From: Pelagicoccus sp. SDUM812003
GTDB lineage: Bacteria > Verrucomicrobiota > Verrucomicrobiia > Opitutales > Opitutaceae
Direction of reading: 5' to 3'
NCBI RefSeq assembly: GCF_031127815.1
Contig: NZ_JARXHY010000013.1
Span: 62,001-126,000 of the forward strand
Length of the DNA: 64,000 nucleotides
Shown: positions 9,789 to 52,089 of the stretch, piece after piece
Position numbering within the stretch: position 1 is the first letter of the stretch
Layout of the letters: each line of letters begins with the position of its first letter
Position numbers and translations under genes: made by a program
Notes under the pieces: model-generated
Told to the model about the DNA's origin: nothing
Database searches by the model: none
Seen by the model: only the letters and a program-made list of their open reading frames with translations

Positions 9789-11744
9789 ATGCAAAACCTT
9801 CCGAGTATTCATTTATCAAAGACACGGGTGCGTAGCGTATTGGCGCTTCTAGGGCTGCTATCCATCGCTAGCCTTTCAAGAGCGAATGGCGGTTTCGAGC
9901 CGCACGAAGCCACAATTGCCGATGTGCATGCAGCGATTCAAGAAGGGCGGGCTACCTCACGCGAGATCGTGGAATCCTACCTTCGACGGATTCAGGCCTA
10001 CAATGGCGTGTGCGTCGAAGAGCCGGATGGGATTCTTGGATACGTCATTCCCATTCCGAACGCGGGTCAGATCAATGCCCTGAGCACGCTCAACCTTCGG
10101 CCGGCGTCTCGCCAAGCGTGGGGTTTCGATGAGCGCAAGGCTCGCTCGATGACGGATTTGGTGGATGACGATCCGAACATGCCGGATGCCCTGGAGGTGG
10201 CCGATCAGCTTGATGAGCACTTCGCCCGGACAGGCGAATTGATCGGACCGCTTCACGGAGTGGTGATCGCGATCAAGGACCAGTACGATACTTTCGATCT
10301 GCGCACAACCGCAGGCGCGGATGCGTTTTATGCCAATGACCGCCCACCGGAGGACGCCAATTTCGTGAAACGGCTTCGCGCGGCAGGAGCGATCATTCTG
10401 GCGAAGTCTAACCTGGGTGAATACGCGTCGCCGCAAGCTCGTAGTTCCTTTGGAGGTACGTTTGGAAATCCCTATGCGACGGACCGCTATCCCGGAGGTT
10501 CCAGTGGTGGATCGGGAAGCTCGGTGGCGGCCAGCCTGGTGACCGTTGCTATCGCCGAGGAAACGGGAGCTAGCATCCGCACTCCCGCTCGGATGAACAA
10601 TTTGGTTGGCATCGCCCCCACGCAGGAGCTGGTATCTCGTCACGGCATGATGGGGGCCGGAATGAATACGCGGACCGGTCCCATCGCTCGCACCGTCGAG
10701 GATGCGGCGATCGTTTTGGATGTGATTGCTGGATACGATCCCGACGACGAGTTGACAGCGTTCAGCGTTGGGAGACTGCCCGATGAACCGTATGTATCCT
10801 TTGCTCGCAATCCGAGCTTGCAAGGAGTGCGGATCGCGGTGGTGCGCGAGTTTATGGATCGCAGCTTGTTCACGGTGGCCGACGAGCAGAGCATCGCTCT
10901 TGTCGAGCAAGCGATCGAGGACTTGAAGGAGCTGGGAGCTACGGTTTTGGACCCTGGCGAAGGCGGCAGTCTTTTCCAGCCGTATATCGATCGGTATTTC
11001 CCTCGTGGAGACAACGCCCTTTTCACGGCTCAGTATCCGGAGCGCTTTCCAGTGAACGCTGAGGGCCAGCCGACCAGCGATCACTTGAAGGAATTGGTGT
11101 CGTTGAATGAAACGCCTTTCACGGGACCGACCATGAGAAGTTTCGGTCCAGCGCCCACCGAGGGCGAAAGTCGGTATTGGCTGGAGACCTACTTGCAGCG
11201 TCGGGGAGATGAAAACATCAAGTCGATCGCTGACCTCATCACCAAAGCCCGCTTTTTCAGAGACGACCGTTTTATCGATCGTCAAGCCGCGTTGATCGAG
11301 CGTTCGAAGGACACGACCCTTGATACGCGAAATAGAATGCAGCGGCGCTTCGCCATTCAGCAAGCCGTCTTGCAGGCGATGGCCGATCTGGATATCGACG
11401 CCTTGGTCTATCCGACTGGAAATATTCCATCTCCTATTTTGGGCGCTCCCAACGAACCGAATAAGAACGGACGATCTGGGCGTTCTTCCTGGAATATCTT
11501 AGGGCAAAATGGATTTGCCGCGATCTCCATGCCGGCAGGGTTCACCACCGAGGTCTACGACCGTATAGAGGATCCTGATACGCCGGGAGAAACCATTCTC
11601 GTCGGTCCGGTGCCAGCGAAGTTGCCTGTCGGAGTGGACTTTCTTGGGCGGCCATTTTCCGAGCCCTTGCTCATCCGCATCGCCGCTGCCTATGAAGCAG
11701 GCACCGGACACCGTGAACCGCCCGAAGGCTTTCCTGCTTTATAG
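9789..11744 (+). CDS. amidase-signature hydrolase AM1, exported, long form
   Basis: This is the only amidase of the locus on the plus strand and, at 651 residues, the longest. Residues 1-32 are a Sec signal peptide. The Ser-cisSer-Lys triad is complete: Lys163 in AIKDQYDT, Ser238 in PGGSSGGSGSS and Ser262 in ETGASIRTP. A segment of about 65 residues (75-140, with VIPIPNAGQINALSTLNLRP) is absent from the other copies and probably shapes the substrate pocket. The C-terminal part also has extra sequence around VYDRIEDPDTPGETILVGP. It starts 20 bases after the CehA/McbA-type gene and is likely co-transcribed with it. The substrate is unknown. It is a different subfamily from the minus-strand array. 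Confidence 0.9.
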   Translation: MQNLPSIHLSKTRVRSVLALLGLLSIASLSRANGGFEPHEATIADVHAAIQEGRATSREIVESYLRRIQAYNGVCVEEPDGILGYVIPIPNAGQINALSTLNLRPASRQAWGFDERKARSMTDLVDDDPNMPDALEVADQLDEHFARTGELIGPLHGVVIAIKDQYDTFDLRTTAGADAFYANDRPPEDANFVKRLRAAGAIILAKSNLGEYASPQARSSFGGTFGNPYATDRYPGGSSGGSGSSVAASLVTVAIAEETGASIRTPARMNNLVGIAPTQELVSRHGMMGAGMNTRTGPIARTVEDAAIVLDVIAGYDPDDELTAFSVGRLPDEPYVSFARNPSLQGVRIAVVREFMDRSLFTVADEQSIALVEQAIEDLKELGATVLDPGEGGSLFQPYIDRYFPRGDNALFTAQYPERFPVNAEGQPTSDHLKELVSLNETPFTGPTMRSFGPAPTEGESRYWLETYLQRRGDENIKSIADLITKARFFRDDRFIDRQAALIERSKDTTLDTRNRMQRRFAIQQAVLQAMADLDIDALVYPTGNIPSPILGAPNEPNKNGRSGRSSWNILGQNGFAAISMPAGFTTEVYDRIEDPDTPGETILVGPVPAKLPVGVDFLGRPFSEPLLIRIAAAYEAGTGHREPPEGFPAL

Positions 11745-11787
11745 GGGGCTTTTGACCTCCCGACAAAAACAGTTACCCTATCAGTAT

Positions 11788-14055: not shown

Positions 14056-14232
14056 TCGTCCTTGTTCGTGGAGTAAGCTGGCAACGGACCGAAATCCGCG
14101 TGCAGCGGAGTGGTAGCGAGAAGAGCGAAGGCGACGCCCATCGAGCGAAGCGAACGGATGAGCACAAGGTGGCAGGCTCATCGGACTATGGATTGCTTGG
14201 TTTTGCTCGGGACCGAGAGGGCGAGGCGCTCG

Positions 14233-15849
14233 TTACTTTTCGTATTCGATCCATTCTCCCTTGAGCACGGGAGTGGTAGCGGGGAGTTTCCTCATGGGAT
14301 GAGCTTGTTCGTAGGCGTAGCAAAGGCCGATGAGCTTGCCCTCGTCGAACGGCTTTCCAAGAAACTCCAGTCCCACCGGCATGCCGTCGCTTTCCGTGAA
14401 TCCCGCGGGTACGGTGATGCCAGGAAAACCCGTCACGGTGCTCATGCGGGTGCCGCGTCCCATAACGTCGTAGTTGTTGTATTCGGCGCGAACCGCTCCG
14501 CCTTCGGGAACGGCCTGCTCGATGGTGTACGCAGGTTTGGTTTGGTAAGGGTAGATGATGGCATCGAGTTCGTAGTCGTCGTACCATGACAGAACGAGTC
14601 TCTTAAAGGCTTCGCGATTGCGAACGAAGTTGGCGTAGTTCTCGTTGAAATACATTGGCGGCTCTTCCAGAGCGCGTTCAAATCCCTCTTGCAGCTTGCC
14701 GAGGGCCAGTCCGCTGTCGGCGATATCCTTCAAGGTCTTGACGGGCACGTCCGGTCCGCGACCTGCCAGGTAGTGGTTCATGGCCTCCATACGTTCTCCG
14801 CGAGAACCGCTCACGGTGCGCAGCATTTTGAACATGTCTATTTCGCCCACCGGAAGCGGATCGATCAAGGTGGCGCCTTTTTCCGAGAGAGCCTCGATGG
14901 CAGCCTCAATTTGTGCGAGGGCCTCCTCGTCTTCCGGATCGCTGCCGAAATTTGCTCTCAACACGCCAATGCGGGCTCCGTTGAGGGCCTCTTCGTCGAG
15001 GTAGGAGAGGTATCCCTCTTTGGGCAGCTTGCCGATGCTAGCGATGGTGGTCAGATCGGCCGCGTCCATGCCGGCCATCCCATGTAGAACGATGGCAGCA
15101 TCAGTGACGCTACGAGCCATGGGGCCTGCTCGGTCCAGTATGATAGAACTGGGTACGATGCCGGCGCGGCTCACCAGACCGTTGGTGGAGGCGATGCCTA
15201 CCAGATTGTTTTTGGTAGAAGGATTGCGGATCGAGGAACCCGTTTCCGTGCCAAGGCCGACCTGTCCGAAGACGGCTGCGATCGCCGCGCCTGAGCCGGC
15301 GCTGGAGCCGCCCGGCACTTTTTCGAGATTGTAGGGATTGAGAACCTGTCCGCCGAGGCCGCTGGTGCCGCTGGAGCCACTGTTGAACTCGTCGAGGTTC
15401 GACTTGGCGAGGATGATGGCTCCCGCCTCTCGCAGACGACGAATGGTGAACGCATCACGAACCGGGACCGAGCCTTCGAGCCCTTTGAATCCGCCAGTGG
15501 TCGCTAGGTCCATGGTGTCGAAGTTGTCTTTCGGTATAATGGGAATGCCATGCAACAAGCTGCGCGGACCGCTCTTCTTGCGTTCAGCGTCAAGTTTCTT
15601 CGCTTCCGCGATGGCATCTTCGTTTAGCGTGAGCAGTGCGTTGAGAGAAGGACCCTTTTGGTCGTAGGCCTCGATGCGCTTGAGATACATCCGTATCAAC
15701 TTTTCCGAGGTCAAGGTCCCTTGATCAAAGGCATTCTGGATGTCCAGAATTGTCGCTTCGTGAAGAGGGATCTTAACCTTTTCCGCGTAGGCGGATACGA
15801 TCAGAAAAATGGATACGATGAATGAAGTGGCGAGTCGTGTACGGATCAT
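14233..15849 (-). CDS. amidase-signature hydrolase AM2, exported
   Basis: The 538-residue protein is the last gene of the minus-strand hydrolase array and runs convergently toward the molybdenum enzyme gene, with 177 bases between them. A Sec signal ends near residue 22 (VSAYA). The catalytic triad is Lys107 (PIIPKDNFDT), Ser182 (PGGSSAGSGAA) and Ser206 (ETGSSIRNP), with the 24-residue spacing between the two serines seen in fatty acid amide hydrolase. The conserved array signature EATILDIQNAFDQGTLTSEK is at residues 31-50. It lies 39 bases behind asparaginase-like ASP1. By motifs it belongs with AM10, AM11 and AM15. Confidence 0.92.
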   Translation of the reverse strand: MIRTRLATSFIVSIFLIVSAYAEKVKIPLHEATILDIQNAFDQGTLTSEKLIRMYLKRIEAYDQKGPSLNALLTLNEDAIAEAKKLDAERKKSGPRSLLHGIPIIPKDNFDTMDLATTGGFKGLEGSVPVRDAFTIRRLREAGAIILAKSNLDEFNSGSSGTSGLGGQVLNPYNLEKVPGGSSAGSGAAIAAVFGQVGLGTETGSSIRNPSTKNNLVGIASTNGLVSRAGIVPSSIILDRAGPMARSVTDAAIVLHGMAGMDAADLTTIASIGKLPKEGYLSYLDEEALNGARIGVLRANFGSDPEDEEALAQIEAAIEALSEKGATLIDPLPVGEIDMFKMLRTVSGSRGERMEAMNHYLAGRGPDVPVKTLKDIADSGLALGKLQEGFERALEEPPMYFNENYANFVRNREAFKRLVLSWYDDYELDAIIYPYQTKPAYTIEQAVPEGGAVRAEYNNYDVMGRGTRMSTVTGFPGITVPAGFTESDGMPVGLEFLGKPFDEGKLIGLCYAYEQAHPMRKLPATTPVLKGEWIEYEK

Positions 15850-15888
15850 GAATGGAGAAATCTCGGAGTTGGAAAAGGCGTTTTAAAA

Positions 15889-16953
15889 CTAGTACTGGTC
15901 GAAGATACGCTTCAGCTCTTCGCGATCGGTCTTGCCGCTGGCCACGGCGAGCATGAGCAGGATGCGAGCTTTGTGTGGGAGCAGATTGTCTCCCGCGACG
16001 ATGCCCGACTCCGTCATGCGCGAGCTTTCGATGACCCGACCGCTGCCGGTTCGTGAGGAAGCGATGACGGGTACGCCCTTGCTGATCGCGGCCTTGAAGG
16101 CGTCGCCTTGAGCGGGAGAGGCTCCCCCCGCTCCATGACCGGCGAGCACGAGGCCTTTCGCTCCGGCACCCACCACGAAATCCACGATGTCGCCAGAAGC
16201 GTCCGCGAAGGAAGGGATGACGTCAATGCGCGGGAATTCGGAAATGTCGCTGATATCGAATTCCGAAAGGTAGGTATGACGGCGAACGGGAGCGCGGAGA
16301 AAATGCACGCCGTCAGGATCGACGACGCCGAGGAAGCCGAGATCGCGCGATTGAAACGCTTCCACCTTGTAGGCGCTGGTCTTGGTGCCTTCGCGGGCGC
16401 TGTTGATCTGTTGGTTCATGCAGATGAAGACGCCCTTGCCACGAGCGTCGGGAGAGGCCGCGACTTGTACCGCGTTGTAGAAGTTCATGGGACCATCGGC
16501 GCTGATCGAAGTGGAAGGACGCTGCGCTCCCACGACAACGACCGGCTTGTCGGTTTGCACCGTGAGGTGGAGAAAGAACGCTGTCTCTTCCAGGGTATTG
16601 GTGCCGTGAGTTATCACGAATCCGGATACATCGGAGCGAAGCGCCTTTTCGTTGATCTTCTCGACCAGGCCCTTCCAGACCTCGGGCGTCATACTGGGGC
16701 TCCCGATGTTGGTATACTGTTCGGCTTCTAGGTTCGCTAGGTCCTTTACTTGAGGAATGAGATCGATGATTTCGGTGATGTCGAATCGCCCCGCGCGGTA
16801 GTCGTAGCGCGTCATGCGGGTGTCACCCTTGCTCTGAATAGTGCCGCCAGTCCCCAGTATCACAACGGTGGGTACAGCCGCGCTAGCGAGCGCGGCGAGC
16901 GAGAGGGTCGCAACAAGGGCGAGAGAAGAAGGAAAGAGTTTTTTGAATCGCAT
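15889..16953 (-). CDS. type II asparaginase-like amidohydrolase ASP1, exported
   Basis: The 354 residues match the length of E. coli AnsB plus a Sec signal (residues 1-26, ending ALASA). The first nucleophile motif LGTGGTIQS gives Thr38, and the second, THGTNTLEETAFFL, gives Thr118. Lys191 in AREGTKTS corresponds to AnsB Lys162. At the AnsB Asp90 position there is Asn119, and Gln59 is replaced by Pro86 (NIGSPSM). Both residues contact the substrate amino group in AnsB, so a substrate other than free L-asparagine is likely. The C-terminus LKRIFDQY is typical of the family. It is 14 bases behind ASP2 and probably tetrameric and periplasmic. Confidence 0.9.
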   Translation of the reverse strand: MRFKKLFPSSLALVATLSLAALASAAVPTVVILGTGGTIQSKGDTRMTRYDYRAGRFDITEIIDLIPQVKDLANLEAEQYTNIGSPSMTPEVWKGLVEKINEKALRSDVSGFVITHGTNTLEETAFFLHLTVQTDKPVVVVGAQRPSTSISADGPMNFYNAVQVAASPDARGKGVFICMNQQINSAREGTKTSAYKVEAFQSRDLGFLGVVDPDGVHFLRAPVRRHTYLSEFDISDISEFPRIDVIPSFADASGDIVDFVVGAGAKGLVLAGHGAGGASPAQGDAFKAAISKGVPVIASSRTGSGRVIESSRMTESGIVAGDNLLPHKARILLMLAVASGKTDREELKRIFDQY

Positions 16954-16967: not shown

Positions 16968-18023
16968 TTAGTACTGGTTAAAAATACGTTGGATTTCGAC
17001 GGGGTCGCTGGTCTTGGTCAGCGCGAGCTGTAAAAGCAGCCGGGCCTTTTGCGGCCGTAGATTGTCGGCGCTGATGGTTCCCTGTTCGAGGCGACGTTCG
17101 CTGTTTAGGACGCGACCTTGTCCTTTCCGGTCGCTGCGCACGACCATCACGCCTTTCGCCTGAGCGTCTTCGAGGGCATCGGATATCTCGGGCGAGCCAG
17201 ATGCGGAGACGATGCCTTTTACCCCTGCGGCTACCAGTCCATCGACCGATCCGCGAGACGCTTCCTGATAACCGTAGACGATGTCCACCTGGGGAAGCTC
17301 ATCGATTTTGGTAACGTCGAACTCAGTCTGAAAGGTGTGCCGTTTGAGCGGCTTGCGGTAGAACACGATTTTATCCGGATCGGCGTATCCAAGAAAGCCG
17401 TACTCGCGCGAGTTGAAAGTCTCGACGCGGTATGTATCGGTTTTCGTTCCTTCGCGGGCCGAGTTGATCTCGTCGTTGAGCACGATCATGGCGCCCTTGC
17501 CACGGGATTCGGGAGCGGAGGCGACGCGAACGGCGTTGTAGAGATTGAGCGGGCCATCGCCGCTGATTGCGGTCCATGGACGCATGGCTCCGACCACTAC
17601 CACTGGCTTGTCGCTGAGGACGGTGAGATTGAGAAAGTAGGCGGTTTCCTCCAGCGTTCCGGTTCCGTGGGTTACTACGAAGCCATCGATGTCCGGCTGC
17701 TCCTGGCAAAGCTGGTTGATGCGTTTGGAAAGTTTTAGGAGGATCTCGCCGGTGATGCGACCCGAGCCGACGTTGATGATCTGCTCGCTCGTGACGTCGG
17801 CGAGTTCGGTGATTTCGGGGACTTCGGCCAGTAGATCGGCGACGGGATAGGTTCCGGACTTGTATCCAGAAAGCATTTCAGGGCTGGGAGCGGCGCCAGA
17901 GATGGTACCGCCCGTGCCGAGGACATGAACTTTCGATTTCGCTTGGAGCGAGGTCGCGGCGAGCGGAATAGCGAGAGCGATGGCGAATAGCGTCATCGTT
18001 TTTGAAAGGCGTGTTTGGATCAT
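16968..18023 (-). CDS. type II asparaginase-like amidohydrolase ASP2, exported
   Basis: The start chosen is ATG 18021-18023, which begins a clean Sec signal (to about residue 28, TSLQA); a start at 18095 would add 24 residues of unlikely leader. The protein has 351 residues. Nucleophile Thr40 lies in LGTGGTISG, Thr121 in THGTGTLEETAYFL and Lys194 in AREGTKTD. The AnsB Asp90 position is Gly122 and the Gln59 position is Gly88 (NVGSGRI). The protein ends in IQRIFNQY, like E. coli AnsB. It lies 103 bases behind amidase AM3, one of the larger gaps in the array. Confidence 0.9.
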   Translation of the reverse strand: MIQTRLSKTMTLFAIALAIPLAATSLQAKSKVHVLGTGGTISGAAPSPEMLSGYKSGTYPVADLLAEVPEITELADVTSEQIINVGSGRITGEILLKLSKRINQLCQEQPDIDGFVVTHGTGTLEETAYFLNLTVLSDKPVVVVGAMRPWTAISGDGPLNLYNAVRVASAPESRGKGAMIVLNDEINSAREGTKTDTYRVETFNSREYGFLGYADPDKIVFYRKPLKRHTFQTEFDVTKIDELPQVDIVYGYQEASRGSVDGLVAAGVKGIVSASGSPEISDALEDAQAKGVMVVRSDRKGQGRVLNSERRLEQGTISADNLRPQKARLLLQLALTKTSDPVEIQRIFNQY

Positions 18024-18126
18024 AGTTGAAAGGGCTTTCAGAGTGTTTGCTGGTATTTGAGAGGGCGGGGGCATCGAAGCGATACCCCCACCCAATCAAT
18101 TTATGCTCGATTCAAAGGTGCGTTTT

Positions 18127-19722
18127 TCAGGAGTCCGAAAGAGGCGGAGTGGTTTCCGGCGACTTGCGATGGGGAAAGGATTGCTCGTAGCTGTAGGCCA
18201 GTTTCAAAATGGTGGCTTCGTCGTAGGGGCGTCCCAGAAAGGTGATCCCAGTTGGCAGCCCCATGGAGGTGAAGCCTGACGGTACCGTAATGGCGGAAAG
18301 CATACGCACGTTGGTATTGATCGAGGGCACACCTTTGCCGCTGACATAGGGCGGATTGAAGCCGTCTTTGACGAGGGAAGGCTGGTGCTCGACGGAATTA
18401 TGCACGATCGCGTCGAGATCGTGTTCAGCCATCACCGCCAGTATGCGCGTGAGCAGTTCCTGTCGGGCTCGGTTGCCTTCAATGGCTGCCTGGTAGTCGG
18501 TTTCGCGAGGCGGGCTAGTCCAGCGTTCGCCTTTTCGTGGGGGAATGGACTGGTCGATATAAGGCGAGTTGCCGATATCCTGATGGGTTTTGATGGGAGA
18601 GTCCGGGTTGCGAGCCAGGTAGATGCGCAGCGCTTCCTCATTCAGCCACCGATCATCCGAACGCAGCGACATGAGCTCCTTTAGCTCCGGGATCTTCAAG
18701 TCGTCGATGACGATCGCTCCCGCCGCTTTCAGCTCATCGACCGCTCGATCGTATTCCTTTTGCACGATCTTGAAATCGTCGCTGCTCGGGTCGGAACGCC
18801 CGCCAATGCTTTCGCGGATAACGCCAACGCGAGCCCCAACCAGACCCTCCTTTTCAAGAGCGTCGGTATAGCTTTTCGGAGCTCGGCCGATGCCCCATGC
18901 GGTGGAAGGATCCTCTGGGTCGTACCCGACCATGACATCGAGCAGCTTCGCTGTATCCTCCACGGTACGACACATGGGACCCATCTGAGCCGCGACGGTC
19001 GGGTAGCCATCCCACATGCCGGTGCGGCTTACGAGACCAGGGGTAGGGCGCAGGCCAACCACGCCATTCCATGTCGAGGGACGACGAATGGAGGCGTAGG
19101 TTTCCTCTCCGAGGGAAATCATGGCGAAGTTCGCCGCCATGGCCCCGCCAGAGCCGCCTGACGATCCTCCCACGGTGCGCGTCAGATCGTAGGGGTTGAG
19201 CGATGCTCCGAAAAAGGATCCATAGGTGTCGCCACCTGCGTACTCGCTCAAAGTCGTCTTCCCGAGTATTATGGCTCCTGCTTGTCTCAGTTTTTCAATG
19301 ACAAAGGCGTCTTTGGGCGTGACGTAGTCCTTGAATACCAGCGTTCCAAGGGTGGTGGCCATGTCGGCGACATCGATTTCGTCCTTCACCAGAACGGGAA
19401 TGCCGTGCAAGGGCCCAACGAAACCGTCCTTCGCGAACGCCGCGTCGAGAGCCTCCGCATCCTCAAGGGCATCCGGATTGATGGAAATGACGCAATTGAT
19501 CGCGGGGCCTTTCTGATCGTAGGCTTCGATGCGATCCAAGTACATCTGGGTGAGCTCCTTAGCGGTGAGCTCGCCGGAGCGGAAAGCCCGGTGGGCATCG
19601 GCGATGGTGGCTTCTATCAGCTCGAACTCAGCTCGAGAGAGAAGAGGCGCAGCGAAAGAGAGCAAGAGGAGCCAAGCGCCTCTAAGGCGATTCTTGTAAC
19701 GGACGATGCGGCTTGTATTCAT
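18127..19722 (-). CDS. amidase-signature hydrolase AM3, exported
   Basis: The 531-residue protein has a Sec signal to about residue 31 and the triad Lys113 (PVLVKDEIDV), Ser187 (VGGSSGGSGGA) and Ser211 (EETYASIRRP). Tyr-Ala replaces the usual Gly-Gly or Gly-Ser before the nucleophile, and the pocket segment reads SEYAGGDTYGSFFGAS, so it is a separate branch from its neighbours. The start region overlaps, in another frame, the end of an amidase remnant (19682-20092); ATG 19720-19722 is the only sensible start that leaves a signal peptide. It is followed by ASP2. Confidence 0.92.
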   Translation of the reverse strand: MNTSRIVRYKNRLRGAWLLLLSFAAPLLSRAEFELIEATIADAHRAFRSGELTAKELTQMYLDRIEAYDQKGPAINCVISINPDALEDAEALDAAFAKDGFVGPLHGIPVLVKDEIDVADMATTLGTLVFKDYVTPKDAFVIEKLRQAGAIILGKTTLSEYAGGDTYGSFFGASLNPYDLTRTVGGSSGGSGGAMAANFAMISLGEETYASIRRPSTWNGVVGLRPTPGLVSRTGMWDGYPTVAAQMGPMCRTVEDTAKLLDVMVGYDPEDPSTAWGIGRAPKSYTDALEKEGLVGARVGVIRESIGGRSDPSSDDFKIVQKEYDRAVDELKAAGAIVIDDLKIPELKELMSLRSDDRWLNEEALRIYLARNPDSPIKTHQDIGNSPYIDQSIPPRKGERWTSPPRETDYQAAIEGNRARQELLTRILAVMAEHDLDAIVHNSVEHQPSLVKDGFNPPYVSGKGVPSINTNVRMLSAITVPSGFTSMGLPTGITFLGRPYDEATILKLAYSYEQSFPHRKSPETTPPLSDS

Positions 19723-20092
19723 AACTTAGTTTCAGGTATTCGGGTGTTGCGAGCGATCGAATCGCATGCTTGAGCTCAAGAGCCCGGTTGTGAATCGGAT
19801 GGTGGTCGAGCGCGTCAGATGTCGTCAGCTCTCCGGCATCCCAGCCGGAAATGGCGGAAGAGGAGACGGCTGCATTTGCGACGCATTTCGCCTTAGGCCC
19901 CACACGATCGCGCCAGGCGGAGCGCGCCCTTACGTCAGCTCGACTCACCAATCCGAAGGGTTTCACCATACCGACGCCGCGCTTGAGACACGACGTGTTC
20001 TGTACCGATTGGCTGGTTTCCGAGCCAAGGACTATGGTTGCTAAATTTTCTGTATTCCCTGGATGTGTAAATAGCCATGCGCCGTCGCTCAT
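19682..20092 (-). pseudogene. amidase remnant with large deletions, still an open frame of 136 codons
   Basis: Between AM4 and AM3 lies a frame that starts with ATG 20092 after a perfect GAGGAG ribosome site. Its translation keeps in-frame pieces of an amidase: ENLATIVLGSETSQSVQNTS matches the nucleophile region of AM4 (LAIGTDTSVSVQSPS), then VGMV, GLVSRA and AISGWDAGELTT match VGMVGTYGMVSRA and IISGWDAEDFTT. The last part, LKLSYEYKPHRP, resembles the C-terminal LKLAYSYEQSFPHRK of AM3. The Lys motif, the GGSS loop and more than 200 residues are missing, so it cannot be an active amidase. It may be a decaying duplicate or a small repurposed protein. Confidence 0.75.
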
Positions 20093-23329: not shown

Positions 23330-23363
23330 GAGAAGGCGAGGGATCGGGAAAGAAGCGGTGTGT

Positions 23364-24902: not shown

Positions 24903-24906
24903 ACGT

Positions 24907-44370: not shown

Positions 44371-46620
44371 CTACCATTTTCGGCCGATATCGACCCGGCA
44401 TTGCCAGGAATCGATAGTCGTTTTTCCCATTCGATTTAGACGTCCGATGGATTCGTCGAGGGGAGCGTTGCCGATATTCAGGAAATCGAAGCGAGCCACC
44501 CAACTTTGATCGATTTTATACACGATTCGGGCGTTGGTGGTTAACCTTTGATCAAGGTATTCGAAGGTGCTCAAACTTGGTCCGAACTGATCGAGGGCCT
44601 GGTCGGTGTAGTCCATTTGCAGCAGCCAGTACAGTCGACCTATGGTTTGCTCGATGGATAGGCGCGATTTGTTTCGCGCGACCATGGGAAGAGGCGTTTC
44701 CGAAAAGGCGACGTTGTCGGTGTCGGCGGTGGATTCCTTGTATTGGTGAAGCACGCGCGCTGTGATGCCCTTGCCTTTCAGTATCGATGGTTCGAATACG
44801 CGAGAGAGCGAGAAATCGATGCCGTGGATGCGAGCGGAGGAGCCGTTGAATTTAGATCGAAATTTGAATCCCTCGTAGGTCCCGTCGACAATGGTCTCTT
44901 CGGTGGAGTAGATGAAGTCTTGAATATCTACCGATGAGATGCCGAGTGTGAGCGATGAGTCGTCGCCGAGCTGCTTAGCCCAAGAGAGCGTCGCCGTATC
45001 CAGCAAAGTAGGACGTAGGTTCGGGTTGCCCGATCTGACGACTTCGCTGCTGCGGGCGATGATCTGGTAGGGGATCAGGTCGTAATAGTCGGGACGAGCG
45101 ATGGTGGTTTGCCAACTGAACTGAAACAAAGAGCTTTCGGATTTCCGATAAGCGATCGAAAGAGTCGGGAAGCCGTTTTGATAGGTTTGCGATCCGTATT
45201 CAGGCGACACTTCTATCGAGTCGTCTACGTTTGCGATCACCTCGTACCCAAAGGTCTCGATTTTGGTGTCCTCGTAGCGCGCTCCGGTCGAAAGGCTCCA
45301 CTCTCCGAACTCGAATAGCGCGTTTAGGTAGCCGCCCAAAACGCGCTCGTAGGAATCGTAGTTTTGCGAAAGCGAATCCTGTTCTGAGGAACTTGCGTTG
45401 TAGAGGTATCCGTCGAGGTGAGTCTCGAAGTGCTCGAGGACCGGGCGTTCTGCGGGGAAATAGCCCAGAGTGTAGTCGCCCTCTAGAAAGTCGCCGACAG
45501 GCTGGTCGTTGAGCGTCGTTTCCATTCCGTAAACGCCTTCGTAGCCGTCGTAGTTTCGGCGGAGTTCGAAGTTGTCTCTATTCTTCTCTCGATAGAGGGC
45601 TCCGGTGGAGATCTTGTAGTTGAAGTTTGGAGTCGTACCCGTGATGTCCGTGTCGAAGTAGACGATGTCATCGCTGTCGTGGGTGGTTTTGTCTTCGAAG
45701 CGGATTTCAAGAAATTCGAAAGTGGAAAGATTCTCCTGAACCAGAGGCTCGACCGCTACAGGGCGGGTAGGGTCGCTCAAGTCCAAGGTGAGCTGATCGC
45801 GAATGCCGTCCTCGAATTGAACGGTGTAGGTACCAGGTCTGAGACGTTTCCAGGAACGGGTCACGGCTCCCGCCCGAAACTGAGTGTTTTCTAGGGCGAG
45901 CTCAGCGCCCACGCCATAGACGTTTTCGGTCCGTTGATCCGGGCTTCTGCGCAGGCTGTTTCGCTTGCGGTTCTTCTGAAATGTTACGAGCGAGTCGTCG
46001 CTACTCGTGTCTCCGCTGGTCTTGTACTCAAGACGAAGGCGCTCGTCCATGTCGTCGATCACGCTATGGCTGCCCACTGCGTAGACGCGCGTCTTTCCAA
46101 AAGTCGCTTGTCCGAACAGGCGAGCGTGTTTCGATTCCGTTTCCAGGGTGCGTACGTCGAAGCGAGCTGTATTGGGCAGGGTGAGGCCCACCGAACTGTC
46201 CGGTTCCTCATCCCAAAGATACTGCAGCGAGTCGAAGCGGCGGTCGAAGCGATTCGTACCGATGTCGATGGAGATGCCGTACCTGCCGTTTTCGTCGAAG
46301 GGGTGCTCGTACCGAGCTCGAGCGCCGTATCCAAAATTCTCAGTCATGGCGTTGTAGCGGGAGAGCAGGTTGATAGAGCCGGATGGCGACGACGAAATCG
46401 AAGTGGCCCAGAGGTAGCCGAACTGGGAGACGCCTTCCGCATCGCCGTTGGAGGTGAGTCCATCGAAGCTGGAGAAACCGGAGGTTTCGGAAGAAACTGG
46501 GTTCTTTTTCTGCAAGATTCGGCTCCGGTCTCGTAGGGACTCGGCCCCCTCTATCGCTTGGCCCATGGAAAGCTGCCCTGAAAGCGTGAATACGCAGGCT
46601 AGCGAGAGGAAGGCTTTCAT
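44371..46620 (-). CDS. TonB-dependent-receptor-type beta-barrel lacking a recognisable plug domain
   Basis: The 749-residue protein has a Sec signal (1-20) and then only about 75 residues before GSINLLSRYNAM, the piece that normally follows the plug (GSVNI-type). The barrel is clear: alternating aromatic strands, the receptor motif ARPDYYDLIPYQIIA followed by SGNPNLRPTLLDTATLSWAK, and a C-terminal strand ending in Trp (VDIGRKW). I see no TonB box or RGP plug signature. It could be a passive or partner barrel, or its plug may have been lost. It starts 127 bases behind the TPR gene and ends 144 bases before the full receptor. Confidence 0.82.
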   Translation of the reverse strand: MKAFLSLACVFTLSGQLSMGQAIEGAESLRDRSRILQKKNPVSSETSGFSSFDGLTSNGDAEGVSQFGYLWATSISSSPSGSINLLSRYNAMTENFGYGARARYEHPFDENGRYGISIDIGTNRFDRRFDSLQYLWDEEPDSSVGLTLPNTARFDVRTLETESKHARLFGQATFGKTRVYAVGSHSVIDDMDERLRLEYKTSGDTSSDDSLVTFQKNRKRNSLRRSPDQRTENVYGVGAELALENTQFRAGAVTRSWKRLRPGTYTVQFEDGIRDQLTLDLSDPTRPVAVEPLVQENLSTFEFLEIRFEDKTTHDSDDIVYFDTDITGTTPNFNYKISTGALYREKNRDNFELRRNYDGYEGVYGMETTLNDQPVGDFLEGDYTLGYFPAERPVLEHFETHLDGYLYNASSSEQDSLSQNYDSYERVLGGYLNALFEFGEWSLSTGARYEDTKIETFGYEVIANVDDSIEVSPEYGSQTYQNGFPTLSIAYRKSESSLFQFSWQTTIARPDYYDLIPYQIIARSSEVVRSGNPNLRPTLLDTATLSWAKQLGDDSSLTLGISSVDIQDFIYSTEETIVDGTYEGFKFRSKFNGSSARIHGIDFSLSRVFEPSILKGKGITARVLHQYKESTADTDNVAFSETPLPMVARNKSRLSIEQTIGRLYWLLQMDYTDQALDQFGPSLSTFEYLDQRLTTNARIVYKIDQSWVARFDFLNIGNAPLDESIGRLNRMGKTTIDSWQCRVDIGRKW

Positions 46621-46747
46621 TGTAGTGGTATAGCAACGCTGCCCAAACGGTCGTCGCGCGGGCGCTACGACTCGGTTTGAAGAATGAGGAAACTGACCGG
46701 TTCAGGTTGAGCTTTTAGAGGAGGGCGGGGATGGGGATTTGTATCCG

Positions 46748-48109
46748 CTATCTCATACTACGCGCGGCGGATTCGACCTTTACGAGAAACGCTTCCACGT
46801 TGTTCTGAGGCTGGATCGACTGGGCGCGTCCTAGGAGTCGCGCTGCCTCGGCGAAGTCTCGTTCGCGCACCAGCATGCGAGCGTGCTGTATCAAGGCCTC
46901 CACTTCAGTCTCTTCCACGTCTTGAGCGCGTTCGTAGTAGAGGACCGCCTTTTCGCGCTCGTTTTGCTTGCTGTAGTAGTCGGCCAGAAGGAGCAGAGCC
47001 TGTCCGTTCAAGGGATCGGACTTCACGACTTCGGTCAGAATCGATGCGGCTCGATCGTCGTCGTTCGTGCCCATGGCGACTTGAGCTTCGTAGTTGAGCA
47101 GGGTGGTTTCCTCCTCGGGGCTGAGTCGCTCACCGATAGCGGACCGGGTCGCGGCGATCAGCTGATCAAGCTCGCTCCAGGCTTGTCGGATTGCCAAGGC
47201 GCGGATCGTGCGCATGAGGCGGTCCTTGCTCAGGTCGTCCAGGCTCAGGGAGGCGATGTAGTAGTCGACCGCGAGGTCGGGGGCGTCCCGATTGATGAAG
47301 ATGTCTCCCAGCAGCGTGAGGCTGGTGCCGGTGGATTTGCCGAGCTCGTTCACGATCTGGAGGTTCGCGGCGGCTTTCATTTCCTCGCCTTCGCCTATGA
47401 AGGCGTTAGCTTGAAGCATGAGAAGGCTGGTGTCGTTCGGGTTGGCCGAGATGAGTTCGTCCAGCAGGCTGATCGCTTCCTTGTTCTCGCCAATGTTGAT
47501 CAGACATTGCGCTTTTCCGAGTTTCCAGTCGCGACTGTCAGGCTCGAAAATGAGGGCGAGTCGGTAGGCGTCCAAGGCGCTGGCCGTTTCGCCCGTGTTC
47601 AGATAAACGAAACCGATCAACCCCAGCAGGGAACCATCCATGGTGCCGAGCGAGGCCGTTTTGAGCAGGGCCGAGAGGGCGTTTTCGAAGTCTCCCGATT
47701 GCACGTAGAGAATGCCGAGGTTCTTGTAGGCCCGAGCGAATCCGGGAAACTTGTCGAGCGCCGCCTTGTAGGCGCTGATCGCTTCCGCGGTGTTGCCGGC
47801 CTGGAAGTGCAGGTTCGCCAAGGTGTAGTCGAGCGCTCCGCTGGATTCTGGAGTGATGGCGGTTGTGAGGGTGGCGATGGCCTCCTGCGGGTTGTTCGCG
47901 ATCAAGGGAGTGAGCGTTTCGAACAGGGCTTTCTCCTCGCTGTTGATGCTCGGGGTCTTCTCGGTGTCGAAGGCGTATGAACCGGTGAAGGCTTTGACGA
48001 AGCTGGGATTGTCCCAGCTGATTTCTTCCAGCTCGTAGACGGCTGATTGGGCGTTGAGAGCGAAGGAAAACAGGCCGGCGGCCACTAGTTTGGAAAGAAG
48101 TTTGTTCAT
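46748..48109 (-). CDS. exported tetratricopeptide-repeat protein of the TonB cluster
   Basis: ATG 48107-48109 gives a Sec signal (MNKLLSKLVAAGLFSFALNA) and 453 residues; a longer frame from 48328 inside tonB is rejected. After a short N-terminal part, helical TPR units run through the protein, for example SGALDYTLANLHFQAGNTAE, FPGFARAYKNLGILYVQSGD and TGETASALDAYRLALIFEPD. TPR proteins of this kind close TonB2-type clusters (DUF3450, ExbB-like, ExbB, ExbD, TonB, TPR), where they act in the periplasm, probably supporting TonB-receptor contact. It lies 22 bases behind tonB. Confidence 0.88.
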   Translation of the reverse strand: MNKLLSKLVAAGLFSFALNAQSAVYELEEISWDNPSFVKAFTGSYAFDTEKTPSINSEEKALFETLTPLIANNPQEAIATLTTAITPESSGALDYTLANLHFQAGNTAEAISAYKAALDKFPGFARAYKNLGILYVQSGDFENALSALLKTASLGTMDGSLLGLIGFVYLNTGETASALDAYRLALIFEPDSRDWKLGKAQCLINIGENKEAISLLDELISANPNDTSLLMLQANAFIGEGEEMKAAANLQIVNELGKSTGTSLTLLGDIFINRDAPDLAVDYYIASLSLDDLSKDRLMRTIRALAIRQAWSELDQLIAATRSAIGERLSPEEETTLLNYEAQVAMGTNDDDRAASILTEVVKSDPLNGQALLLLADYYSKQNEREKAVLYYERAQDVEETEVEALIQHARMLVRERDFAEAARLLGRAQSIQPQNNVEAFLVKVESAARSMR

Positions 48110-48131
48110 GGTGATTCGGACTTTGATCAGC

Positions 48132-48809
48132 TTATTGGATACGGAAGGGAACATCGATTTTGTAACGGGCACGCACGGGCTCACCGTTTTTGGTTGGCGT
48201 TTCGAAAAGGCATTGTTCGATGGCGTCGATGGCGGGCTGGGTGAATTCGCGAGCAGTCGAGCTGACGACCTTTTCCACTGTAGCGGTACCGTTGGTGTCG
48301 ATGATGAGGATGAGAGAGACCATGCCATTGATTCGCATGCGGCGCAGCTCGGCCGGATACACGGGCAGAACCGTCTTCACGCGTCTGGGCGGCTGGTCCA
48401 GGTCGGACACGTCGAAGATTTGCAGATCGCCCACTGTGTCCGGTTCGACCCCGAAGCCCTCGAAGGCGAAGGCGCCTGCCATGGCATCGCCGAATCCGGG
48501 GTTGAGCGCGAGGTCCATCTGGCTGAGCGACAGTTGCTGGACATTGCGCTGCATTTCCGGCGGAGGCTCTTCGACCTTTTCGTTTTCGGGCGGCGGCGGT
48601 TCCGGCGGAGGCGGCGGAGGCGGCGGAAGCGCCACGTCCACCGTGACCACATCGCTTTTGTCATCTCCGCCCCCGCTGATGTACTGGGTGAATGGGAGGA
48701 TCAGGAAGACCCCCGCGGCGCAGATGACCATCGCGATAACAGTCTTGGGTCCACCCGACGACTCCTCCTCCTCGAAGCGTGGAGTTTCGTAGTCAGCTTG
48801 TTCGATCAT
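48132..48809 (-). CDS. tonB: energy transducer TonB
   Basis: The 225-residue protein has the TonB layout: a cytoplasmic start, one membrane helix (TVIAMVICAAGVFLILPF, about residues 23-40), a Pro-rich spacer with PPPPPPPPEPPPPENEKVEE and a C-terminal domain (about 135-225) with VLPVYPAELRRMRINGMVSL. It transmits proton-motive force from ExbB/ExbD to outer-membrane receptors. The protein is short with a short Pro-rich spacer, like TonB2-type proteins. It starts 6 bases behind exbD. Its closeness to the two receptor-type barrels suggests a dedicated system. Confidence 0.93.
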   Translation of the reverse strand: MIEQADYETPRFEEEESSGGPKTVIAMVICAAGVFLILPFTQYISGGGDDKSDVVTVDVALPPPPPPPPEPPPPENEKVEEPPPEMQRNVQQLSLSQMDLALNPGFGDAMAGAFAFEGFGVEPDTVGDLQIFDVSDLDQPPRRVKTVLPVYPAELRRMRINGMVSLILIIDTNGTATVEKVVSSTAREFTQPAIDAIEQCLFETPTKNGEPVRARYKIDVPFRIQ

Positions 48810-48815
48810 CGGTCT

Positions 48816-49226
48816 TTATTTGATGTCGTCGGTGGAGATGCTCACGGAGTTCGCTCCGCCCAGTTTGGCTTCGTCGATCACGCGAACCAGCAGATCGGTG
48901 GGCACGGTGCGGTCCGCTTGGATGATGACCGGCATGTCTTCCTCGGCGGTCAGTCGCTGCACCGTGGAGCGAATGCCGCCGACGCCGACGTCGCGGCCTC
49001 CATAGACGACCTGTCCATTTGAAGTGATGGCGACGAGGATGCTGTTTTTTTCCAGGTCGACCGCGGAGGACGCCTGCGGTTTGCTGACTTCCACACCGGT
49101 CTCTTCCACGAAAACCGTGGTGACGATGAAGAATATCAACAAAATGAATACCATGTCGATGAGCGGCGAGATGTTTATTTCGTCGCTGCCGGAGGATGAT
49201 TGGGAAAGTGTACGGGCTCTTGGCAT
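48816..49226 (-). CDS. exbD: ExbD-type biopolymer transport protein
   Basis: The 136-residue protein begins with a short cytoplasmic part followed by [20 protein letters not shown], the single ExbD membrane helix with its conserved Asp (about residue 24) used in proton movement. The periplasmic domain follows, with [18 protein letters not shown] and [24 protein letters not shown]. Length and motifs are standard. It lies 11 bases behind the second exbB and 6 bases before tonB, so the three are co-translated parts of one motor. Confidence 0.95.
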
Positions 49227-49237
49227 GTTCGTTTCGT

Positions 49238-49849
49238 TTATGCGTGTCCGCGCTTTGGATCGAGTAGGCGTTGGAAGGTGGAGGTTTCCAGCTTGGTGAG
49301 AAAGAGCTCGAGAGCGTCGAGCTTTCGACGTATTGAAGAGATCATTACAAGGGCCGGGATGGCGAGCACGAGGCCTGTTTCGGTGGTGATCAGAGCCTCG
49401 GAGATGCCGCCAGCGATCAGCCCCACTGTGTTCGAGCCTTCGCTGGAGGAAAGCCCGCTAAAGGTAGTGAGCATGCCGCCTACCGTGCCGAGCAGGCCGG
49501 TGAGGGGAGCAGAGCTGACGATGATGGTGACGAACTTGATGCGGCGCTTGAGTCGTTCGATCAAGGTGTCGCGCACCTCTTGGAACCTAAGCCGTACCGC
49601 GCCGGGCGTCTTCTTGTCCGCCAGCACGAACTTGAGGATCTTTCCGATGTCGCCCCGCGCTTCCTGCGGCCGGTCGATCCAGTGCCGCCATTCGTTTTGA
49701 CCCACGCGGGTGTAGTCCTTCGACTGCAGTCGAAAGTAAATTTCGAATACGGAGTAGTAGATCAACATGCCCAGGATGAAGAGCGGACCCATGAGCCAGC
49801 CGCCTTCGATCCAGAGGCCGAGCGCATCTTCTTTGAAGAATTCGATCAT
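49238..49849 (-). CDS. exbB: ExbB/TolQ/MotA-type proton channel protein, short form
   Basis: The 203-residue protein has an N-terminal membrane helix ([20 protein letters not shown]) and two C-terminal helices in the MotA/TolQ/ExbB domain, with [20 protein letters not shown] and [20 protein letters not shown]. These Thr- and Gly-rich helices line the proton path around ExbD. Its ATG overlaps the stop of the longer ExbB-type gene by 4 bases (ATGA). In TonB2-type systems the short ExbB2 forms the motor and the long partner is TtpC-like. Confidence 0.94.
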
Positions 49850-51300
49850 GCCTTTGCTCCTCCCGCCATGCGTTTTTCGAACTCCACTACGTTAGGGGCG
49901 GCATGGGCGGCGATCCCGTTCACGAAGGTGATGGAGGTCTTCTCCATCTTTGCGATCATGGAGTTCGCCTTGCGGCTCAGGAAGGCGGAGAGAAGCAGGG
50001 AAGGGATGGCTACCACCAGTCCGAACTCGGTGGTGATGAGGGCCTCCGAGATTCCAGAGGAGAGCGACTTCGCATCGCCGGTGCCGAAGAGCGTGATCAG
50101 TTTGAAGGTGTTGATCATGCCGGTGACCGTGCCCAGCAGCCCTAGCAGGGGCGCCACCGCCGCGGTCACGCTGATGAAGGACAGCCCGCGCTCGAGCTTG
50201 GGTTTTTCCTCGAGGAGGTTTTCGAACATGATTTCGTCCAGCAGTTCCTTCGGCAGGTGGCTGTTCTTGATTCCGACGACCAGCATTTTGGATTCGGCGC
50301 CACCATTCTCCTTCGCTACCCGCTCGGCTCCTGCCTTGTCGCCCTTGTAGAGTTTCGAGAGCACTTCGAACACCACTTCCTTGGGAAGCAGCTTGTACTT
50401 GCTGAGCTCGAGGAACTTGAACGCTGCAATAGCGAGCGACAGAAATGCGAAACCAAGAATTGGATACATCCAAAGCCCGCCTTTTCCGATGTGCTCGATG
50501 AGCGATTCCTTGGTTGCGGAAATCGCCGTGGCTCGGCCGCCCGAGGTATCCAGAGGCACGCTCCCTTCGCCTTGTTTCACGAATTCCGCGATCGCCGGCG
50601 TCGCTTCGGGGTCGAAGACCAGAAGTCTCGGCTCCAAGGAGGAGCCACGCTCCGCCAGCCCAGCGGACTTGCCGTCGGAGGACGCGAAGAAGGCGATCGG
50701 GCCGAGGAAGGCGAACTGCCCGTCGACGAAGCTACCGTCCGCAAGGATCGCTTTCCCGCCAAAGGAATGGCCGGCGGCATTGTCTTTTACGCGTTCCAGT
50801 CCCATTCCGATGGCCGAAAGGCGCTTTTCTATCAGGTCGTCGCGACTGATTCCCGACTTTTCGCTAGCGTTCAGGATCTCGAGCAGATCGTCCCCGTAGA
50901 GCTGCACCTCGCTTGGATGAATCGAGGCGTTGAGCCGGTTGGAGTAGTCGAGCAGAAGGTTGGAAATGTAGGAAATCTCGTCCTCGCGAGCGCTGAGTTG
51001 GGTCTCCAGCGAACTCAATTCCAAACCGGAGTTGTCGCGTTGCCGCTGAAGGGACCGTTGTTCGGAGCGCTTTTCCTCGACGATCTGCTCGATCTCTCTC
51101 AGCTCGGTCGCTAGAGGGATCTTCTTTTCGGCGATGGATTCCCGGAGTTCGGCGAGCTCCTGGATAGCGGTTTCCAGTCGTTTTTCAGCTTTCCCGGATA
51201 TGGCGCCGAGATCGGACTGGCCAAACGAGAAAGCGGGGAGCGAGGCAGCAAGCGTCGCCGCGAGGACGCGCCTTAGACCAATGGTGGTGAAGGTGATCAT
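49846..51300 (-). CDS. TtpC-like long ExbB/MotA-type protein
   Basis: The 484-residue protein has a signal-like start (LAATLAASLPAFSFG), then a coiled-coil region (about residues 30-110: RLETAIQELAELRESIAEKK and the following helix), a periplasmic part, and a C-terminal ExbB domain with LWMYPILGFAFLSLAIAAFK, APLLGLLGTVTGMINTFKLI and [20 protein letters not shown]. This matches TtpC of Vibrio TonB2 systems, needed for certain receptors. It follows the DUF3450 gene by 15 bases and overlaps the short exbB by 4 bases. Confidence 0.9.
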   Translation of the reverse strand: MITFTTIGLRRVLAATLAASLPAFSFGQSDLGAISGKAEKRLETAIQELAELRESIAEKKIPLATELREIEQIVEEKRSEQRSLQRQRDNSGLELSSLETQLSAREDEISYISNLLLDYSNRLNASIHPSEVQLYGDDLLEILNASEKSGISRDDLIEKRLSAIGMGLERVKDNAAGHSFGGKAILADGSFVDGQFAFLGPIAFFASSDGKSAGLAERGSSLEPRLLVFDPEATPAIAEFVKQGEGSVPLDTSGGRATAISATKESLIEHIGKGGLWMYPILGFAFLSLAIAAFKFLELSKYKLLPKEVVFEVLSKLYKGDKAGAERVAKENGGAESKMLVVGIKNSHLPKELLDEIMFENLLEEKPKLERGLSFISVTAAVAPLLGLLGTVTGMINTFKLITLFGTGDAKSLSSGISEALITTEFGLVVAIPSLLLSAFLSRKANSMIAKMEKTSITFVNGIAAHAAPNVVEFEKRMAGGAKA

Positions 51301-51315
51301 AAATAGGGAAGGGAG

Positions 51316-52089
51316 CTAAAGGATTTCGATTGGGAGAGTGACAAACGCTGGCGGCGCGTCGTTGGAGTGGATGGCGATGGCGTCGGCGATACTCATGGCC
51401 TCATCGCCCGCGACGGTGGTCCAGGTCCACCCCTCTGGAGTGGGATGTCCATATCCAGCGTTCTCCGCGTTGGCGTCGGCGTAGTAGGCGACCGATAGAC
51501 CGAAATAGATCGTCTTCACCTCCTTCGATACTCCCGGCTCGACTTCCTTGATTTCCGATACCATGGAGATCTGCGAATGGAATTTTTCAACTTGTGTCAG
51601 AATTCCAACTACAGTTTGAATCCGTTGGGAAAGGGGCGCTTTCTTAGCGGCTTCTGCATCCTTGGGAAGACGCTGGATGAGGGGCTGGATGTCCATCTTG
51701 AGCGGCTCCGGAAGCAAGGGAACCACACTGCGAGCAACCCCTTCATAGCTCGTTGCAGCCTCCTCTAGTAGAGCAGCGGTCGCTTTCGCCTCTTCGATCT
51801 TCTCGGAAAGCTCCGCCCGTTTTTCATCCGCTTCTGTTGACGAGTTTTCGAGTTCCTCTATTCGCTTGCTGATGGACTCAAGCTCCGCTTTCGAAGCGTC
51901 GATCATGTCGTTTAGAAGAGCTTCTTCGTTTTTCCAATCCGTTGATTCCTTGGATATCTGCGACTGTACTTTTGACCACTCGATAAAAGTGGAGCGAGTG
52001 TCATCGAGTTCAGCGGCTGTCGCGTTAAGCCCGATTAAGGCACAGAGGGTTGCAGTCCCTCCGATGAGGGTCCTTAGGTGGTTGTTCAT
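51316..52089 (-). CDS. DUF3450 family periplasmic protein, first gene of the TonB cluster
   Basis: The 257-residue protein has a Sec signal (to about residue 27, IGLNATAA), a long coiled coil (about 35-115, with NDMIDASKAELESISKRIEE and AELSEKIEEAKATAALLEEA) and a C-terminal beta-rich part with KTIYFGLSVAYYADANAENA and GWTWTTV. This is the standard DUF3450 pattern. Such genes regularly precede ttpC-exbB-exbD-tonB, and the product is thought to assist the energising complex in the periplasm. It lies at the head of the operon, 57 bases from a copy of the AACCACACGAAC leader motif. Confidence 0.9.
   Translation of the reverse strand: MNNHLRTLIGGTATLCALIGLNATAAELDDTRSTFIEWSKVQSQISKESTDWKNEEALLNDMIDASKAELESISKRIEELENSSTEADEKRAELSEKIEEAKATAALLEEAATSYEGVARSVVPLLPEPLKMDIQPLIQRLPKDAEAAKKAPLSQRIQTVVGILTQVEKFHSQISMVSEIKEVEPGVSKEVKTIYFGLSVAYYADANAENAGYGHPTPEGWTWTTVAGDEAMSIADAIAIHSNDAPPAFVTLPIEIL

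Follow-up and report, generated by a model that had tools for sequence, protein, structure and literature searches.

Why would a bacterium maintain nineteen predicted amide hydrolases beside genes for an energised outer-membrane uptake system? The question is raised by a 64,000-nucleotide stretch of DNA from Pelagicoccus sp. SDUM812003 (contig NZ_JARXHY010000013.1, positions 62,001 to 126,000), hereafter called the window, whose internal numbering we use throughout. The genes concerned encode amidase-signature (AS) enzymes, asparaginase-fold enzymes and TonB-receptor-type proteins, which we designate A, N and T, respectively. An original prediction, made from the DNA letters, had proposed that they form an amide-directed equivalent of a polysaccharide utilisation locus (PUL). 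This core idea is supported by recurrence of the arrangement in other genomes, by conserved gene order and by the linkage of receptor and hydrolase genes, and we judge it reasonably probable that the locus is a TonB-coupled amide-utilisation system, which would import amide-rich compounds and hydrolyse them in the periplasm, probably for nitrogen.

A search of the whole genome with the Pfam Amidase model (PF01425) found 14 AS genes on the minus strand of the window, between positions 14233 and 41320, and a single one on the plus strand, the longer A0 (9789..11744), where the match is in two pieces; all 15 score over the cut-off. Because just three AS genes lie elsewhere in the 5.75-Mb genome, this clustering is beyond chance. 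NCBIfam scans concur with Pfam for all 11 of the 15 window AS genes that were scanned. Four asparaginase-fold genes (PF00710/PF17763; at 15889, 16968, 32767 and 33896) are the sole PF00710 matches of the whole genome. These searches bear out the predicted 15 intact AS genes, four asparaginase-fold genes and one AS remnant, as well as the tight packing of 18 intact genes on one strand within 27 kb; the intergenic gaps of this run range from -41 to 148 bp and are smaller than 50 bp in 15 of 18 cases.

Read from position 52089 downward, the minus strand begins with a TonB energising cluster (46748-52089), which lies upstream of the amidase genes in the same orientation. The first gene encodes a DUF3450 protein (51316..52089; PF11932, E 1.6e-27), and it is followed by genes for a TtpC-like member of the MotA/ExbB family (49846..51300; PF01618), ExbB (49238..49849; PF01618, E 3.7e-25), ExbD (48816..49226; PF02472, E 5.3e-28), TonB (48132..48809; PF03544, E 3.3e-13) and a TPR protein (46748..48154; matches to TPR families). 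The name TtpC was given by no search and is one that we take over from the original prediction. Next come the two predicted receptor-type genes, T2 (44371..46620), which has a barrel match only (PF14905; TIGR01782 over positions 272-848 only), and T1 (41533..44226), which carries a Plug domain (PF07715, E 4.3e-8).

The hydrolase genes then follow on the same strand in the order A14 (39746..41320), A13 (38159..39721), A12 (36583..38172), A11 (34962..36554), N4 (33896..34939), N3 (32767..33906), A10 (31221..32804), A9 (29630..31195), A8 (28072..29601), A7 (26494..28062), A6 (24907..26481), A5 (23364..24902), A4 (21764..23386), A3 (20118..21716), the AS remnant (19682..20092), A2 (18127..19722), N2 (16968..18095, start uncertain), N1 (15889..16953) and A1 (14233..15849), the last gene of the run. 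Among the AS genes, A13, A10 and A1 were examined with PF01425, NCBIfam and an inspection of the catalytic triad positions, A12, A9, A6 and A4 with PF01425 and the triad inspection, and A8, A5, A3 and A2 with NCBIfam and the triad inspection, to which the gene tree adds the divergence of A2. The A11 subfamily served as the query that found the named relatives described below.

The Lys-cisSer-Ser triad of AS enzymes is kept in 14 of the 15 window genes and in 125 of 126 full-length genes overall. The window genes thus look catalytically intact with one exception, A5, which carries Thr at the position of the catalytic cis-Ser and is possibly inactive. Pairwise identity among the window AS proteins (105 pairs) has a median of 37% and a maximum of 56%. 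For A14, the closest solved relative is the peptide amidase 5ac3/1m21, and in the 11 of 15 proteins scanned, the TIGR02713 and AtzE models scored far below their cut-offs. The remnant matches only positions 142-220 of PF01425 (under the cut-off in the whole-genome search, just over it in a second scan) and also aligns to residues 193-284 of A3. Together with A5, it is a sign of decay among the copies.

Export of nearly all of the enzymes had been predicted, and all 19 indeed pass a crude signal heuristic with at least one of the two candidate starts scored per gene (A0, N2 and N3 with the longest open reading frame only, A5 and A12 with the shorter start only). Tat-like motifs were found on A7 and A8. 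A scan of the intergenic gaps of the run saw no minus-strand terminator-like sites, which fits a predicted single long transcription unit, and the promoter and terminator scans gave no excess over shuffled sequence.

The original prediction had proposed a search of related genomes for AS genes co-occurring with TonB receptors, and the layout does recur in records of both Opitutaceae (Verrucomicrobiota), the family of the host and of Opitutaceae bacterium EW11, and Gammaproteobacteria. We found 59 loci, of which 31 weak ones (L084-L114, 26-39% identity) were left out of the maps; L057, L060, L062, L064, L068 and L074 were swapped for longer stretches of the same genomes. In G241, a single-contig genome of another genus, the TonB cluster is followed by T2, T1, A14, A13, A12, A9, A3, N2, N1, A1 and an NMT1/LysR gene pair in window order, and a second site holds A11, A10, A8, A7, A6 and A4, again in window order. 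Partners of A0, A2, A5, N3 and N4 were absent from the G241 stretches examined. The DUF3450 gene has the same position, and the TPR gene is conserved, in G241 and in G020, and the G241 counterpart of ExbD is 91% identical. In G020, the series DUF3450-TtpC-ExbB-ExbD-TonB-TPR-T1 precedes 17 AS and six asparaginase-fold genes on one strand, followed by seven more AS genes. The G011 locus has 22 AS genes, and that of EW11 is smaller, with eight AS genes, two asparaginase-fold genes, one receptor and four genes of the TonB cluster. Records of Nevskia (G391), Steroidobacter (G399) and Lysobacteraceae (G401) also hold similar loci; there, ribosomal protein S2 is only 40-45% like that of the window. 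Relatives of A0 occur in the loci of G011, G012, Nevskia and Steroidobacter.

The proteins with partners in both the window and G241 (12 AS enzymes, N1, N2 and T1) are 76-87% identical even though synonymous change between their genes is saturated or nearly so (pS 0.72-0.94), and thus the paralogues have been maintained by purifying selection. This observation bears on the proposal that the locus is a loose pile-up of duplicated amidases beside an unrelated receptor, with no shared pathway. The remnant and the probably inactive A5 are the kind of gene decay that such an accumulation would leave, and fragmentary genes also occur in loci of Cellvibrionaceae. Nevertheless, different genera share the gene order and one-to-one partners, and linkage to the receptor is seen again for hydrolases of unrelated fold, as described below, so we consider an accumulation of this sort quite unlikely.

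The gene trees interleave the phyla, with subfamilies common to Verrucomicrobiota and Gammaproteobacteria. Given this interleaving, transfer between phyla at some time is likely. A recent transfer between the lineages of the window and G241 was considered, as the amidases are about 80% identical against 71% for S2, but the near-saturated synonymous sites make it unlikely. The age of the paralogues, evident both from those sites and from the subfamilies common to two phyla, also argues against the degradation of a single amide polymer or xenobiotic, such as a polyamide or urethane oligomers, by A7 and A8 acting like NylA or UMG-SP urethanases. A7 does match UMG-SP3 (E 9e-43) and 6-aminohexanoate-cyclic-dimer hydrolase (E 1.6e-40) among solved structures; its match to GatA, however, is better (E 5.6e-50). 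Because the paralogues are old, a man-made substrate cannot explain their origin, and we regard this explanation as very unlikely.

Two records in this comparison have doubtful labels. L056 is labelled as gammaproteobacterial but was not counted as such, since the sizes and the order of its amidase reading frames agree with those in the Opitutaceae genome G241, and the label Klebsiella pneumoniae of L079 was not trusted, with an S2 that is 46% like the window's; its AS run is among the nine lacking a receptor that are discussed below. Separately, a membrane protein of about 580 residues with conserved His motifs occurs in gammaproteobacterial loci (L057:12659-14413, L059:3243-4910, L074:11606-13336 and L219). 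The one member scanned had no Pfam match, and the AF2 model (pLDDT 64) was too poor for a fold search. Small proteins that look lipocalin-like by eye are also found in loci of Opitutaceae (G011:3191800) and Nevskia (G391:C198:34877).

In a receptor tree, the T1-type locus receptors group in a single clade that contains none of the host's 20 other receptors placed in the tree (20 of 47). T2 lies outside this clade. Sequence searches detected no Plug domain in T2, its AF2 model (pLDDT 35) was too poor for a fold search, and it has a counterpart in G241_a (about 50% identical) and a weak likeness (23%) to one receptor of L222. The best NCBIfam matches of T1 include haem and siderophore receptors, which could suggest that T1 takes up siderophores and that iron is freed when the amidases cleave siderophores of hydroxamate or peptidic type. 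However, those matches are far below the cut-off (E about 1e-7 or weaker), and no iron gene was noticed among the neighbours, most of which were judged by eye only. Moreover, iron would hardly explain the company of AS, asparaginase-fold and AmdA genes and, beside related receptors, of isochorismatase-type hydrolases, which leaves a siderophore role extremely improbable.

Given that the mapped loci had been found through an amidase and that some are near-copies, we added a search from the receptor side, in which a T1 profile was run against 75 Opitutaceae genomes (E<=1e-60, with no more than 12 candidates scored in each). It yielded 22 T1-family receptor genes in 13 genomes; 16 of these genes have an AS or AmdA gene no more than 10 kb away (16 of the 21 assessable, since G365:C6 sits at a contig end). 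With E below 1e-80, all 14 assessable receptors are linked in this manner. In the host genome, none of the 47 other Plug matches has an AS or AmdA gene within 10 kb (the smallest distance, on C21, is 10.6 kb), and the difference is marked (Fisher p 1.4e-11), with a control from one genome set against a test from 75. Seen from the amidase side, the 33 locus maps contain 24 runs of at least three AS genes with a visible upstream gene, which is a same-strand receptor in 11 and a TonB-cluster gene in four; seven further runs start at an edge and are not among the 24.

T1-family receptors also keep company with hydrolases of other folds. One Opitutaceae locus (G035:C271, L240) reads TonB-TPR-T1 followed by four genes for AmdA, the acetamidase/formamidase family, which belongs to a different Pfam family from the AS enzymes, and another (G029:C77, L239) has three AmdA genes near T1. 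PF03069 was confirmed for two of these seven proteins (two of the four from G035), and the rest were assigned by BLAST. AmdA genes are present in nine of the 33 maps. As a separate observation, an AS gene adjoins an FmdA_AmdA gene elsewhere in the host genome (G000:C21:54624-56847).

On a sister branch of the T1 family, receptors of five Opitutaceae genomes (G253, G341, G365, G011 and G020) adjoin AtzE-like, HpxX/Z (AtzG/H)-like and BiuH-like genes. The receptors of the other four genomes are 66-73% identical to that of G253, and those of G011 and G020 were included in the tree. In G253, scores exceed the cut-off for the models of AtzE and allophanate hydrolase but not for those of BiuH and HpxZ, and an allophanate hydrolase homologue also adjoins the receptor in G341 and G365, giving three of five (L245, L242 and L241). 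No second AS gene was seen near the receptors of G011 and G020 in the 20 kb examined. Allophanate hydrolysis is a nitrogen-releasing step, and for this reason the sister branch points to nitrogen use. The set also holds a protein of about 525 residues without annotation (L245, L242, L241, L223 and L224). L245 also encodes a GntR-like regulator, of which L241, L242 and L223 have homologues.

The asparaginase-fold proteins deserve separate attention. The fold of the four predicted asparaginase-like genes is confirmed by PF00710, and N1 and N4, the two scanned with TIGR00520, both exceed its cut-off, but the four fall into a divergent subfamily without Asp90. In an alignment of 39 locus proteins (one partial; long relatives of 569-595 residues excluded) with E. 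coli asparaginase II (3eca), to which they are homologous over the whole length, T12 and Y25 are kept in all 39 and T89 and K162 in all 38 that cover these positions. By contrast, D90 is kept in none of 38, being replaced by N in 19, G in 12, S in three, T in two and A in two, and E283 is likewise kept in none of 38 (R in 30). Q59 is also replaced, and N248 is replaced or falls in a gap.

For comparison, we took 22 non-locus type II asparaginases of Opitutaceae, defined by the absence of an AS gene from a stretch of 1.9-3.6 kb; known locus members, short PF00710 matches (L173-L175 and others) and a second pair in G031:C82 were excluded. D90 is present in 22 of 22 of these, E283 in 20 of 21, Q59 in 21 of 22 and N248 in all or all but one, and the D90 contrast is strong (Fisher 7e-17, with relatedness ignored). 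According to published work, D90 and K162 belong to the catalytic triad of asparaginase and a D90E change chiefly altered substrate binding, a cited study found E283 not essential (PMC8948990), and Gln63 of the Helicobacter pylori enzyme, which we equate with Q59 of the E. coli enzyme, contacts the substrate amino group (PMC4321988). Given the loss of D90, E283 and Q59, N1-N4 and their locus relatives are probably not ordinary L-asparaginases and should not be annotated as such. Either their specificity or their mechanism appears to have changed, and we infer that their substrate may lack a free alpha-amino group.

N3 and N4 travel together, both being present in 13 of the 14 maps that have either, and the exception ends at a contig edge. 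We had considered N3 a possible pseudoenzyme without Thr12, and this was rejected, as the alignment with 3eca reveals that it is Thr9 that is replaced and that T12 is kept. Other PF00710-type proteins were noted in passing, namely long (569-595 residues) asparaginase-like proteins distant from N1-N4 (L067:16223-17962, G011:3206661-3208448, G391:C198:35392 and G388:C5:534889) and two matches at G031:C82:71544-73241 that resemble another N3/N4 pair.

Beyond the end of the hydrolase run lie divergent genes for a LysR protein (4815..5726, minus strand, start uncertain; PF00126/PF03466) and an NMT1/NrtA-type binding protein (5853..6818, plus strand; PF13379, E 2.7e-26). This pair adjoins the locus in the window, G241, EW11 and G011, and in G012 an NMT1 relative lies about 14 kb from the amidases. 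NMT1 relatives are present in 30 of 75 genomes, mostly away from any locus. The heuristic found no export signal on the NMT1 or LysR protein with either candidate start, and for NMT1 this makes a sensor role possible, by analogy with NasS, a sensor in nitrate regulation. The pair is a possible regulator of the locus.

On the basis of these observations, the locus might work as follows. The dedicated ExbB-ExbD-TonB set would energise the T1-family outer-membrane receptor, which would import into the periplasm those amide-bearing compounds that porins could not admit because of their size or low concentration. There, the exported enzymes, AS amidases as well as the divergent asparaginase-fold proteins, would cleave C-N bonds, probably each with a specificity of its own, and the released ammonia (or amines) and carboxylates would be used by the cell, mainly as nitrogen, possibly under the control of LysR and NMT1. 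The proposal is weakest in its choice of substrate, for which carboxamide-rich material, either peptide-like or oligo-amide, is the likeliest class. A more ambitious version, which we offer tentatively and hold to be rather doubtful, is that the T1 family constitutes an undescribed class of amide/ureide TonB transporters in Verrucomicrobiota and Gammaproteobacteria, that the giant loci import carboxamide-rich (peptide-like) oligomers, and that the D90-less 'asparaginases' are a new class deamidating bound rather than free carboxamides, together making up a nitrogen counterpart of the polysaccharide-utilisation system.

Several findings weigh against an amide-utilisation locus and should be kept in mind. 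The original prediction would fail if relatives carried only scattered amidases; this is not the case in the locus-bearing lineages, but most relatives do carry few. All seven same-genus genomes searched have two to seven AS matches in all, which makes the distribution of the locus patchy, and at least 20 are found in only three of 37 same-family genomes (the host's included). Five T1-family receptors (G020:876786, G035:C16, G002:C12:553154, G253:1802123 and G008) are unlinked, the linkage control has the narrow base already mentioned, and the 20 kb examined for a related receptor of the sister branch (G401:C27) contain no AS gene. In nine of the 24 AS runs, the gene directly upstream is neither a receptor nor a TonB gene, some of these runs being later parts of receptor-fronted clusters (G020, G011 and G399), and the second amidase site of G241 also has neither. 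Counts from loci found through amidases are biased and non-independent, as L056-L083 were retrieved by similarity to A11 and near-copies are included (L065 and G395; L056 and G241_b; L080, L081 and L083). The NMT1/LysR pair is not universal, with the NMT1 matches of G020 and G341 lying elsewhere, and no recognised enzyme of the locus accounts for the fate of the released product in the cytoplasm. Finally, a motif search found genes for RND pumps in six of the 33 maps, and a split one in G388.

Such pumps would suit detoxification, in which the exported amidases would inactivate amide natural products (peptide antibiotics, or cyanobacterial or plant amides) with the help of the pumps, and nutrition would be secondary. 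The diversity of the 15 window AS enzymes is also what would be expected for many targets. However, the motif found no RND gene in the maps of the window, G241, G020 and EW11, and detoxification could do without an importer of its own, whereas no part of the system is better linked than the receptor. The AtzE/BiuH-like sets beside related receptors, with allophanate hydrolase or a homologue in three of five, also suit nitrogen use. We therefore consider detoxification an unlikely explanation, and amide utilisation remains the reading that we favour.

Other genes near the run appear less closely connected. The CehA/McbA-type protein, the MoCoBD molybdenum protein and the deiminase (PAD_porph) pair named in the original prediction are all present, although they do not belong to the recurring unit. 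These window genes were included in the reference set for the maps, and they occur in none of the other 32 locus maps (some of them short) nor in 20 further stretches, so that their position beside the locus may be accidental. The description of the molybdenum enzyme as an N-heterocycle type is not sustained; its matches are to xanthine-dehydrogenase-type models, all below the cut-off. At the far end of the window (57881-63917), genes for a CheA-like kinase and response regulators are convergent to rpsB-tsf.

In soil and water, most organic nitrogen is present as amides, and TonB-coupled loci have been described mainly for sugars, metals and vitamins. With the smaller version of the locus carried by EW11, an isolated rice-root endophyte, amide uptake across the outer membrane becomes directly testable. 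The annotation of a group of 'L-asparaginase' genes would change, and the loci, with up to 24 AS genes each and an importer of their own, are a large source of diverse amidases for biocatalysis. The main text of the EW11 paper contains no word starting with 'amidase', and it reports that endophytes are enriched in asparaginase domains (PMC7251102). None of the matches listed in our open-literature search (title and start of abstract, few subscription journals covered) describes a combined amidase-TonB locus.

How, then, does the locus compare with known systems? The AtzE-, HpxX/Z- and BiuH-like genes beside T1-related receptors in five Opitutaceae genomes recall the atzDGEHF/biuret-allophanate operons, the composition of which is given in the literature (PMC6219798). 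The window differs in lacking these genes and in using peptide-amidase-like AS enzymes. A14 has the same AS fold and catalytic triad as the peptide amidase 1m21/5ac3 of Stenotrophomonas maltophilia, whereas the window has many diverged paralogues clustered with a receptor. Relative to E. coli AnsB, the asparaginase-fold proteins combine the retained T12, Y25, T89 and K162 with the replaced D90, Q59 and E283. TtpC-ExbB-ExbD-TonB-TPR is a recognised type of energising cluster, and the window has the same gene set, but here it sits inside an amidase locus.

In design, the locus resembles PULs, in which one gene run encodes a TonB receptor together with many exported hydrolases and enzyme families are mixed and matched. 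The window locus likewise unites a receptor with hydrolases of predicted export in one recurring run. It differs in that its hydrolases target C-N bonds rather than glycosides and in that it carries its own ExbBD-TonB set. The run contains no SusD-like or carbohydrate-active genes, every gene being assigned to amide hydrolases, receptors or TonB parts. The design is thus that of a TonB-coupled degradative locus, in which the class of receptor and the group of D90-less enzymes would be novel, and the whole looks like a nitrogen-scavenging counterpart of the polysaccharide utilisation loci.

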